DNA of 64,000 bases, from NCBI GenBank assembly GCA_019058515.1, contig JAHPYY010000135.1, forward strand, positions 9,716 to 73,715, read 5' to 3'. Each line of letters begins with the position of its first letter. Positions within the stretch are counted from its first letter, which is position 1. The position numbers were made by a program, and so were the translations under genes. The notes beneath the pieces were generated by a model. The model made no database searches. It was not told the DNA's origin and was given only the letters and a program-made list of their open reading frames with translations. This DNA comes from Promethearchaeota archaeon. GTDB taxonomy: Archaea > Asgardarchaeota > Lokiarchaeia > Sigynarchaeales > SOKP01. Positions 7,360 to 26,453 of this stretch are shown piece by piece.

Positions 7360-8307
7360 CTAAAATTCTGATAAATCGGGATATAACTTATTGAAATAGA
7401 AATGAACGTGACTGCTAGCAAATATTCCCGCTTCTGTTATTAAACCGTCAATATATCTTCTGCTCACTGTTTCGAAAGCGGGATTTAGAACTCTAACTCC
7501 TTTTGGGGCATCATTCCATATTTCGGCTGGTTCCCTCATTTCTATTTTTTCTAAGATGCCAAAAGAAGTTTCTGGATTATATTTTAATAGCGGAGAAGCC
7601 ACATAAAAAGGAACATGCTCTTCGTGAGCAACTAAAGCAAGCAACCTGCTTCCAATCTTGTTTAAAACAGTTCCTTCACTTGTTATCGAGTCAGCTCCTA
7701 TAATGATCAAATCTACTTCGAAATGATTAACCGCCCAACGCATCGCGCTGTCCACGATGTGCATAACCTCAATTCCCGCATCCATTAATTCTCGCGCAGT
7801 TTTTCTGCCTTGTAATCTTGGTTGAGTTTCAGTATTAATTACTTTAATGTGATCCTTTCCTTGTCTTTTTGCTTCTAGTATTATACCGGTAACGACAGAC
7901 GAGTGGCAGTGGGTCATAATCACGAAATCATCGTTGTCTTCTAACTCGGGAATCCTTCTCGCGCCGATCTCTGCAATTTTTGCTTTAGAGTCTTTTATCA
8001 GTGCTTTATATTCGTCCTTAAAACTCTCAATTATATCCGGAATTTGGGTAAATTTTATTTGGTCTCTTACTTTCCATATTTTATTTAAGATGTAGTTTAA
8101 ACCATTTCTCATTGCAGGCTCCGTAGGACGCGTATCGATTAGGATTTCTTTAGCTTCGCTTAGTTTGGAAAAAAATTTGCTTATATCCTTGGTAGTTATT
8201 CTTCTCGCATAATCGCTAAGAAATGTAATAGCGTGAGTTGCAACGTTAGTGGCACCTTGAATATCTAACGATTTTATTTTTTTAGTATCTTCAAGTAATT
8301 TTTCCAT
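7360..8307 (-). CDS. ribose-1,5-bisphosphate isomerase (eIF-2B-related)
   Basis: A 315-residue member of the eIF-2B alpha/beta/delta superfamily. In archaea, R15P isomerase converts ribose-1,5-bisphosphate (made from AMP by AMP phosphorylase) to ribulose-1,5-bisphosphate for RuBisCO. Visible family motifs are TRPTEPAMRNGLNYIL near the N-terminus, MTHCHSSVV around the catalytic cysteine, NTETQPRLQGRKTARELMDAG, and IIGADSITSEGTVLNKIGS with the conserved Asp. The ATG at 8307 begins four bases after the RuBisCO stop codon, a tight operon arrangement that supports the assignment. AMP phosphorylase, the first enzyme of the route, is not in the window. Related sequences include methylthioribose-1-phosphate isomerase, but the RuBisCO neighbour favours R15P isomerase. 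Confidence 0.9.
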   Translation of the reverse strand: MEKLLEDTKKIKSLDIQGATNVATHAITFLSDYARRITTKDISKFFSKLSEAKEILIDTRPTEPAMRNGLNYILNKIWKVRDQIKFTQIPDIIESFKDEYKALIKDSKAKIAEIGARRIPELEDNDDFVIMTHCHSSVVTGIILEAKRQGKDHIKVINTETQPRLQGRKTARELMDAGIEVMHIVDSAMRWAVNHFEVDLIIIGADSITSEGTVLNKIGSRLLALVAHEEHVPFYVASPLLKYNPETSFGILEKIEMREPAEIWNDAPKGVRVLNPAFETVSRRYIDGLITEAGIFASSHVHFYFNKLYPDLSEF

Positions 8308-8311
8308 AATT

Positions 8312-9586
8312 TCAACCCCATTTCTCTATCGCTTGTTTTAATTGAACATTAGATTTTGAATAATCTTCTAGACTTATATTTTTGAGGGAAGCTTCAACTG
8401 CTTGTCTAACGGCCGTTGCACCCTCTTTAGTTCCACGAGGATGACCGTGCACTCCTCCACCAAATTGAAAAACCATGTCCGTTCCGAGATACTTTATTAA
8501 ATCTGGTACATGGAGAGGACTCAACCCTCCTGAAGCAACGGGCAAAACCGGTTTAAGACTATACCAGTTTTGATCTAAACTTGTTAAATCGTTTCCTTTA
8601 AATTCGGATTCCGTAATATTTTTGTTAATCTCTATAACCTCGTTTTTTCCTCCTTCCATTTTCCCAACTATTGTACCTGTGTGAAGTTGGTCCATTCCAA
8701 TTAATCGCATCAATTTCGCAAGGGCAAGCATAGTCATTCCATGCTTTTTATTTCTCGTAAACGCGGCGTGCATAGCCCTATGCGCGTGAATGACGATGTT
8801 CTTGTCGTCTAAATAATCTCTAATCTCTTGTAGAGCAGAAAATCCTACGGTTACTATGTCTACCATGATATATTCACCTCCATTGCTAATAACGTGATCT
8901 GCGCGCTTTTTCATTACATTCACTTTAGCTGTTATATTTGGCATGTAGATCTTTTTTTCCCCTGTTTCACTCTCTGCTTTGTCTCTCACTTTGAGAGTTT
9001 CTATTACTCTTTTTTTGAAATTGTTAAACGACATACTAGTTAAATTTTCATCGTCTTTTACGATATCTAATCCTCCAAGCCACGCTTCACCACACACTTT
9101 TGCGTGTTCTACCTCGTTCAATCCGACCTTTGGCTTAACGATCGTTCCGAGTAAAGGTCTGTTATATACTTTAGTTAGTTTTCTAATGCCATCAATTCCG
9201 AATTTAGGACCTTTGTAGGAATTTACGATCGATTTTGGAAAGGAGATGTCTAATAATCTTAAGTTATTTATAGCCTTCATGCCGTAAATATTTCCCGCAA
9301 CTGCGCTGAGAATTTGCGACATGTTATTAGCTTCAAAAAGCTCGTGCGAATAAGCAATCTTCACAATACTATTTATCTCGTCTATATAGAATACTGAAGG
9401 CTTTAATCTATGAGCAATGTCCTCAGACATGGTTACAATATCAGTCCATGTCCCGATCGAGCTCTCTTTTGCGATTTCTTCGCAAGCTGTTTGAATATCA
9501 ACACACTCAGGAGCTTTTTCTATGTAATACATCGCAATTAAATCGTTTTCTCCTGGTTGATAATCTAAATTTATATAATTTATCAT
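8312..9586 (-). CDS. rbcL: ribulose-bisphosphate carboxylase large subunit, archaeal form III
   Basis: About 424 residues, the usual length for form III. Catalytic motifs are in place: TIVKPKVGL (active-site Lys), GGLDIVKDDE (carbamylated Lys and metal-binding Asp/Glu), HAHRAMHAAFTR, and loop 6 GKMEGGK with its catalytic lysine. The C-terminus has VASGGLSPLHVPDL and GGGVHGHPRG. It fixes CO2 onto ribulose-1,5-bisphosphate, yielding two 3-phosphoglycerates, in the archaeal AMP/nucleoside degradation route. I chose the ATG at 9586 (MINYINLDYQP) because an AGGTGA site lies eight bases upstream; an upstream GTG at 9598 overlaps that site. It is the first gene of the RuBisCO-isomerase operon. Confidence 0.95.
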   Translation of the reverse strand: MINYINLDYQPGENDLIAMYYIEKAPECVDIQTACEEIAKESSIGTWTDIVTMSEDIAHRLKPSVFYIDEINSIVKIAYSHELFEANNMSQILSAVAGNIYGMKAINNLRLLDISFPKSIVNSYKGPKFGIDGIRKLTKVYNRPLLGTIVKPKVGLNEVEHAKVCGEAWLGGLDIVKDDENLTSMSFNNFKKRVIETLKVRDKAESETGEKKIYMPNITAKVNVMKKRADHVISNGGEYIMVDIVTVGFSALQEIRDYLDDKNIVIHAHRAMHAAFTRNKKHGMTMLALAKLMRLIGMDQLHTGTIVGKMEGGKNEVIEINKNITESEFKGNDLTSLDQNWYSLKPVLPVASGGLSPLHVPDLIKYLGTDMVFQFGGGVHGHPRGTKEGATAVRQAVEASLKNISLEDYSKSNVQLKQAIEKWG

Positions 9587-9668
9587 ACGATTTTTCACCT
9601 CATAATCTGTAATACAAAGTAGTATTCAATGTTATCTGTTTCATGGCTGATCTTAACTTAAATTTAAT

Positions 9669-25959: not shown

Positions 25960-26304
25960 ATGAATATTACCGATACCGCTACTGAAATAATAAAAACAGA
26001 GCTCAAAAACTACTCAGAAAACGGAAACAAAGATGAACTTGCGATAGTACTTTATCAATACACGGTACGCTCTTGATCGGGGTCGTTCTGCCAAGATATT
26101 GTTCAATTGGTCCCAAAAAAAGAATTAGTGGGACACGAAGGATTTGAAAAGTGGATGGATATTAACAAGGACGAGTTAAGTATTGAGGTGTATATTGACA
26201 AGAGGCTTATCAACCAATATGGACCTCACGAACGCGTTACGCTTGATGGAAGAATGTCGAAGTTTCTAAAATGGCGGAAAAACACTCTGTTCATTCAATA
26301 TTAA
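25960..26304 (+). CDS. IscA/HesB-like selenoprotein with in-frame UGA (Sec39)
   Basis: An ATG at 25960 opens a frame of 114 codons interrupted by one TGA at 26074-26076 and closed by TAA at 26302. Both sides of the TGA are protein-like and fit one small domain. The N-terminus MNITDTATEIIKTELK resembles the first helix of IscA/HesB proteins; next comes TVRS-U-SGSFC, where a cysteine is expected; then QLVPKKELVG, VYIDKRLINQ and FLKWRKN. The 3' UTR carries a hairpin with the AUGA/GA core of a eukaryote-like SECIS (26306-26358). Lokiarchaeota are reported to encode selenoproteins with such elements, so UGA most likely encodes selenocysteine. A conventional reading would start at TTG 26107 and lose the conserved N-terminal half. 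HesB/IscA proteins take part in Fe-S cluster handling; this role is inferred. Confidence 0.72.
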
Positions 26305-26305
26305 A

Positions 26306-26358
26306 GAAAAATAAATATGACCCAATCCTAAAAAAATGGTAGAGGATTGGCGATTTTC
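26306..26358 (+). ncRNA. eukaryote-like SECIS element in the selenoprotein 3' UTR
   Basis: It starts just after the TAA (26302-26304). Order: possible lower helix GAAAA (26306-26310) with TTTTC (26354-26358); AUGA at 26317-26320; an 8-bp perfect stem CCAATCCT (26322-26329) with AGGATTGG (26343-26350); a 13-base A-rich apical loop (26330-26342) holding the expected unpaired As; and CGAT (26351-26354) supplying the GA opposite AUGA. A C-C mismatch separates the GA/AG core from the stem. This reproduces the eukaryotic SECIS plan: AUGA, A-rich loop, GA. Confidence 0.65.
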
Positions 26359-26453
26359 GGTTGCCACCGTTTTACCCATTTTTTATTTAATTTATATATC
26401 CTTTTCTTAATTATCTACATTATCTTAGTGTTAGCCTAAAATTTGGATTAATC

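Follow-up and report, generated by a model that had tools for sequence, protein, structure and literature searches.

We found that a 114-residue protein encoded in the window (the whole 64-kb stretch of DNA that we analyzed) is very probably a selenoprotein with an IscA fold, carrying selenocysteine (Sec) at an in-frame UGA codon; this estimate does not extend to the protein's function. We also lean, with modest confidence, toward a broader proposal: that the Asgard SECIS is a three-way junction, not a single eukaryote-like hairpin; that recognition requires its second hairpin, whose loop mostly contains GC and which perhaps takes the place of SBP2 binding in eukaryotes; and that the IscA-fold family is one of several selenoprotein families missed by Asgard surveys, with the same element behind unnamed UGA frames of three other kinds. 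The features of the gene and its 3' element are collected in Table 1.

Table 1. Coding and RNA features of the predicted selenoprotein gene (positions in the window).
Feature	Position	Strand	Basis
Coding frame, IscA-fold selenoprotein, 114 residues (UGA = predicted Sec)	25960..26304	+	ATG 25960, TAA 26302-26304
In-frame UGA, predicted Sec39, opposite Cys35 of E. coli IscA	26074..26076	+	family codon column and alignment
Cys44 codon (U-x4-C)	26089..26091	+	Cys in 30/50 family rows
65-aa TTG fragment, sole piece of the frame in the ordinary ORF list	26107..26304	+	ORF list
Helix 1 (lower stem), 5' strand; starts in the gene's last codon	26300..26311	+	pairing analysis
Kink-turn hairpin, eSECIS-like element	26317..26353	+	layout scan, covariation, covariance model 61.3 bits (own sequence is 1 of the 44 building the model)
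AUGA core	26317-26320	+	12 nt past TAA
Perfect 8-bp stem	26322-26329/26343-26350	+	sequence
A-rich apical loop, 13 nt	26330-26342	+	sequence
GA opposite AUGA	26352-26353	+	sequence
Accessory hairpin CGGU-UGCC-ACCG, set between the core and the lower stem	26358..26369	+	pairing analysis
Helix 1 (lower stem), 3' strand	26380..26391	+	pairs with 26300-26311 at 11 positions, G.A mismatch at one

Translation bears out the frame described in the first-pass annotation: 114 codons continue through one TGA, which lies in the setting ...TVRS-U-SGSFC.... That annotation had also held that standard gene calling would yield only a fragment starting at TTG 26107, and this is the sole piece present in the ORF list. 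The protein goes unnamed in Pfam and NCBIfam, the one Pfam match (E 0.14) being at chance level. Its relatives come from a six-frame search, reading through stops, of 227 genomes of the same phylum. The single protein as query reached 39 genomes at E<=0.1, and profile A1 reached 56 at E<=0.01. Of 55 profile matches from other genomes at E<=1e-4, 52 contain one TGA (1 of the 52 also ran past its TAA), and the remaining three are free of stops and encode Cys where residue 39 aligns. Duplicate removal left 57 genes, including the one described here, and UGA-bearing members occur in 46 of the 227 genomes searched. We aligned 50 rows and checked the DNA of 49 codon by codon (the fiftieth, P0002, was available as protein only). 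The homologues proved to have Cys or predicted Sec at residue 39, a comparison that the first-pass annotation had suggested: the column holds TGA in 46 of the 49 rows and TGT (Cys) in three, and no row has a second TGA. On either side of the UGA, dN was below dS in 15 of 16 close pairs, which are non-independent, share sequences and give small counts. Comparison across the family thus shows that UGA 26074 is a conserved sense codon that is exchanged with Cys.

A search of 5.8 billion proteins with the 114-residue protein returned one, a plasmid search was empty, and exact-peptide scans of genome contigs and viral contigs found none. The 21 database proteins gathered in total comprise 14 with Cys (KQ[AV]C[AS]GSY), five with Trp and two 68-aa pieces from beyond the UGA; these last two deposited proteins, P0021 and P0022, resemble the post-UGA pieces of these selenoproteins (compare L064 and L066). 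The Trp proteins bear on a pseudogene reading, in which a plain Trp or Cys gene has acquired its UGA by nonsense mutation or through a sequencing error. The closest database homologue, P0002, prints Trp at residue 39, and TGG to TGA is a single step. However, this Trp also fits a code-4 call of UGA. The ENA contigs behind all five Trp proteins (P0002, P0012, P0015, P0016 and P0018) are short, at 563-875 nt; by eye, P0016 and the UGA-bearing L075 are identical but for the start and one further residue, as code-4 calling would print. Because of the short contigs and this near-identity, the five proteins are most simply read as UGA translated with code 4, as judged from the protein sequences. Together with the recurrence of TGA in the 52 matches from other genomes and the purifying selection that flanks the UGA on both sides in relatives, this makes a pseudogene or error very unlikely. 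Lineage-wide reassignment of UGA to an amino acid (Trp) would fit the rarity of TGA as a stop in the window, where it closes 2 of 45 long frames. We consider it exceedingly unlikely, since TGA does close those two frames, it is Cys that takes the place of the UGA in genomes, and the sole match in the window to our SECIS covariance model, R1 (described below), lies behind this one gene.

The Sec reading of the UGA calls for a SECIS. The first-pass annotation had placed a hairpin of the eukaryotic SECIS plan immediately after the TAA and ended it at 26358. We recovered its AUGA, perfect 8-bp stem, A-rich loop and opposing GA, with a C.C mismatch between the AUGA and the stem, but the hairpin begins only after a 12-nt gap and the element runs to about 26391. 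The plan is correct for core, stem and apical loop and incomplete as a picture of the element, which has a further conserved hairpin plus a lower stem. In an eSECIS-layout scan this hairpin scores 26, and none of 500 mononucleotide shuffles reached at least 20 (maximum 16.5). Among 223 control 3' ends behind ordinary frames, drawn from the window, L001 and other fetched loci and partly redundant, one scored at least 18 and none at least 20. Scores of at least 18 were found for 38 of the 52 UGA family members; the 14 below 18 include bulged stems and four altered cores (AUGU in L010 and L011, AUAA in L026, and ACGA in one L003 gene). The same scan detected no SECIS hairpin at the 3' end of L073 and no comparable element behind the three Cys genes of the family (best score 12). 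Compensatory changes across relatives, which the annotation had named as a check, are present: double changes occur at all eight stem pairs among 44 sequences. As a separate observation, two or three family genes lie in close proximity at L003, L004 and L005, and at L005 the outer two carry UGA and a SECIS, the central one Cys without a comparable SECIS.

The hairpin fits the type I model of Asgard eSECIS-like elements given in the available text of PMC11227280 (GA_[G/A]A core, upper stem of 7-15 bp, apical loop of 8-20 nt). It shares with that type the AUGA_GA core, an upper stem of 8 bp, an apical loop of 13 nt that opens with A's, and the short distance to the stop codon, and differs in having an extra conserved hairpin between the core and the lower stem. 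Eukaryotic SECIS elements have the AUGA/GA kink-turn and apical A's in common with it (available text of PMC11227280), but not the extra 3' hairpin. Rfam gave no SECIS family at 26317-26353 even at E<=10, and none at gathering score in the window.

We weighed whether the UGA is instead a true stop, with re-initiation at TTG 26107, and the 3' hairpin a terminator or other mRNA element. The unconstrained minimum-energy fold lacks the SECIS stem (-23.3 kcal/mol, vs -17.0 kcal/mol with the stem enforced) and forms another hairpin, a longer one with a U-rich tract behind it; the stem is present in the minimum-energy fold of 45 of 56 elements, the one here not among them. However, the profile alignment crosses the UGA, the AUGA/GA core, A-rich apex and stem covariation agree with Asgard eSECIS, and the same covariance model retrieves the 3' ends of known selenoprotein genes. 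Termination at the UGA is thus highly improbable.

The model in question, R1, was built from 44 family elements and searched over the 227 genomes. It matched in 53 genomes, 49 of which have SepSecS, and had no match among genomes G001-G072, where only G001 and G002 have SepSecS. Outside the family list R1 found 27 places, of which we fetched 20: six lie behind VhuD-type frames, one behind HdrA, one behind a Prx-like and one behind a DsbA-like frame, two behind further family relatives and eight behind unnamed UGA frames, and one (L112) has no clear gene. The names VhuD, HdrA2, AhpC-TSA and DSBA are profile matches of one representative each, and the other frames were judged by eye. Since R1 finds known selenoprotein genes, the element modeled from the IscA-fold family alone is their SECIS too. 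By this comparison, the 3' UTR of the gene described here carries the SECIS type of known Asgard selenoprotein genes.

We next consider the parts of the element beyond the kink-turn hairpin. Straight after the GA core, nearly all elements have a hairpin of 3-8 bp with varying arm sequences (CGGU/ACCG, AGGGG/CCCCU, CCAGG/CCUGG, ACAGUU/GACUGU). Across 56 non-redundant elements, its arms score 12.4 with their own partners vs 7.6 with swapped ones (sd 0.47), and the lower stem, which encloses both hairpins, scores 16.0 vs 12.5 (sd 0.36); in each case none of 2000 permutations was as good. The 5' strand of the lower stem is the end of the coding frame in many members. GC occurs in the accessory-hairpin loop of 45 of the 56 elements, and the accessory hairpin forms in the minimum-energy fold of 51 of the 56, the element here being without it. 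Single accessory hairpins are weak (p<0.05 in 19 of 52), and in only 11 of 56 rows does no foreign 3' arm outscore the gene's own. The pairing is convincing only for the whole set of elements, not singly. R1 includes the accessory hairpin, and its matches therefore do not support it independently. The VhuD elements, which were reached by protein search, do (30 loci, 27 with a match, 25 scoring at least 14): all 16 non-redundant cases have it; none of 500 shuffles was as good, and swapped arms were as good in 14 of 2000 permutations, only a modest margin. The 3' ends of SelD genes, where five of 24 loci were usable and the type-I scan performs poorly (z 2.0, 81 of 2000 permutations as good), bear little on the accessory hairpin and speak strongly in neither direction.

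The available text of Huang et al. 2024 (PMC11227280) describes a core, upper stem, apical loop and lower stem and leaves the accessory hairpin unmentioned. A 2022 review, in its available text, gives the Lokiarchaeota SECIS one apical loop (PMC9499178), a statement with which the second hairpin conflicts. Measured against these two sources the second conserved hairpin may be new, and a literature search for a three-way junction in Asgard SECIS elements returned nothing. No SBP2 homologue has been found in Archaea according to the available text of PMC9723677 and PMC9499178, and the latter calls SECIS reading in Archaea without SBP2 an open question. A Lokiarchaeal vhuU SECIS is reported as non-functional in M. 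maripaludis (available text of PMC11881835), so the required factor awaits discovery. The second hairpin, conserved in the family elements and the VhuD set, offers a concrete, testable candidate binding site.

In our proposal, the SECIS would comprise a kink-turn hairpin, an accessory hairpin and a lower stem joined in a three-way junction. From established knowledge, Sec-tRNA(Sec) would be made by the PSTK/SepSecS route, and the archaeal Sec elongation factor would bring it to the ribosome at a UGA when a SECIS is present. Searching for tRNA-Sec with RF01852 was unspecific (14 of 14 control genomes match at the E-value limit, five over the cut-off), so we took SepSecS (TIGR03531) as the marker of Sec machinery. 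Of the 227 genomes 133 have SepSecS; of the 14 controls, Methanocaldococcus jannaschii alone does. SepSecS occurs in 41 of 46 family genomes vs 92 of 181 others (Fisher p 1.3e-6), and SepSecS or a UGA-containing SelD in 45 of the 46. UGA-containing SelD matches over the cut-off were found in G075, G085, G091 and G151; G073 (1.7 Mb) has neither SepSecS nor UGA-SelD over the cut-off among the matches listed. Judged by a single gene, IlvD, the window is Lokiarchaeal in character: its IlvD shares 73-76% identity with that of five genomes, among them a named Lokiarchaeota MAG, and all five have SepSecS. The first-pass annotation had named three grounds for refutation (homologues with neither Cys nor Sec, missing Sec machinery, no compensatory changes), and none was borne out in the relatives covered here.

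The likeness to the IscA/HesB family stated in the first-pass annotation stands for the fold and for the alignment of Sec with Cys35, and fails for sequence profiles. The predicted fold matches IscA, SufA, other Fe-S biosynthesis/HesB-type proteins and a YneR model (8 entries listed). Foldseek alone against the PDB gave no significant match (best E 1.0), and IscA is absent among the matches listed from PDB sequence searches. Sec39 aligns with Cys35 of E. coli IscA, in agreement with the annotation's placement of Sec at a cluster-type cysteine; hhalign concurs, but at 10.8% probability. The protein is 16% identical to the A-type Fe-S carriers IscA/SufA of E. coli (PF01521, TIGR00049), with no profile match over the cut-off, and the best relative scanned against PF01521 (L068) reaches 22.0 vs 26.3 bits. 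The first cluster ligand of PF01521, at the Cys35 position, is kept as Cys or Sec. The C-terminal Cys pair, which we take to be Cys99/Cys101 in IscA, is absent in the 114-residue protein and L016 and partly kept in L068, L029 and L030. The model is thus of an IscA/SufA fold with Sec at the Cys35 site and the C-terminal Cys pair missing, and the protein is probably not a standard Fe-S scaffold.

As to function, which we infer, the likeliest role is tentative: an IscA-like carrier may use the selenolate as its ligand for metal or sulfur. Alternatively, Sec39 and Cys44 could cycle in a selenol redox enzyme, as the presence of Cys44 in 30 of 50 rows and the view that many selenoproteins are redox enzymes (available text of PMC13188914) would suggest. 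We regard this as rather unlikely, because the other 20 rows are without Cys44, and Cys44 is predicted to lie five residues on along the next strand, not in a CxxU-type turn. Joint metal handling with a divergently transcribed P-type cation ATPase is improbable as well. One ATPase cluster, identified as E1-E2 ATPase from one scanned representative, lies head-to-head with the family gene in 23 of 52 other loci (L055:2-1387 - among them), divergent in 23 of 23 and within one family branch. But no such gene lies beside the gene described here, the cluster is absent in 29 of the 52 loci within the stretch covered, and the arrangement may be mere synteny of one branch. In the U-C-G branch, the family gene adjoins a PP-loop ATPase gene (L071:3-875 +, L074, L075 and L077) that is LarE-like by eye.

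Two known families resemble the IscA-like carrier proposed here. The HesB-like selenoprotein TIGR01911 of bacteria and methanogens is likewise small, related to IscA and Sec-bearing; mutagenesis and 75Se labelling revealed it in M. maripaludis, its function being described as unclear (available text of PMC11097638). None of 27 members of the family described here match it at E<=1, and its motif is UxGP (available text of PMC13188914) vs USGSFC here. The CC/Se motif family NF041239 (Moorella) is matched by six of the 27 at E<=1 (best 7.1e-8); the best relative reaches 32.4 bits vs the curated cut-off of 40, and the 114-residue protein has no match. The 2024 survey (PMC11227280) lists seven Asgard selenoprotein families, the word HesB being absent from its main text, and a 2026 review gives, in its available text, eleven archaeal families with HesB-like as TIGR01911. 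The open-licence literature, in the main text available, yielded no description of an IscA-fold Asgard selenoprotein family, which recent surveys appear to have missed. The Asgard selenoproteome, which bridges archaeal and eukaryotic Sec coding, would thereby gain a branch present in the 46 genomes, and R1 provides a route to further missed selenoproteins.

Several R1 places deserve separate mention. L112 (G116:C66:81257-81323) is a strong match (56.7 bits) with no clear gene in front and is perhaps a relic. L114:2384-2854 + and L117 share a DAGCUU motif with two consecutive UGA, and the UGA that terminates them apparently overlaps the element's AUGA; L114 has no Pfam or NCBIfam match. L121, L127:1827-2756 + and L128 encode proteins of about 310 aa with UGA in a common setting (AGITU / GIAU / GCSUGY) and an R1 element downstream, with no family match for L127. 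L115:2362-2508 +, L118 and L126 encode what by eye are small single-pass membrane proteins (about 50-85 aa) with the motifs GGGGUC, GGGUC or NNTGGUGC, followed by an R1 element, a layout that we take to resemble eukaryotic SELENOK/SELENOS. A search for L115 in 83 genomes gave close matches in G098 (UGA reached) and in G094 and G095 (ending before the UGA), the weaker ones being doubtful. Elsewhere in the window (7360-9598 -), a RuBisCO-like protein adjoins a ribose-1,5-bisphosphate-isomerase-like protein, as judged by eye from the ORF list.
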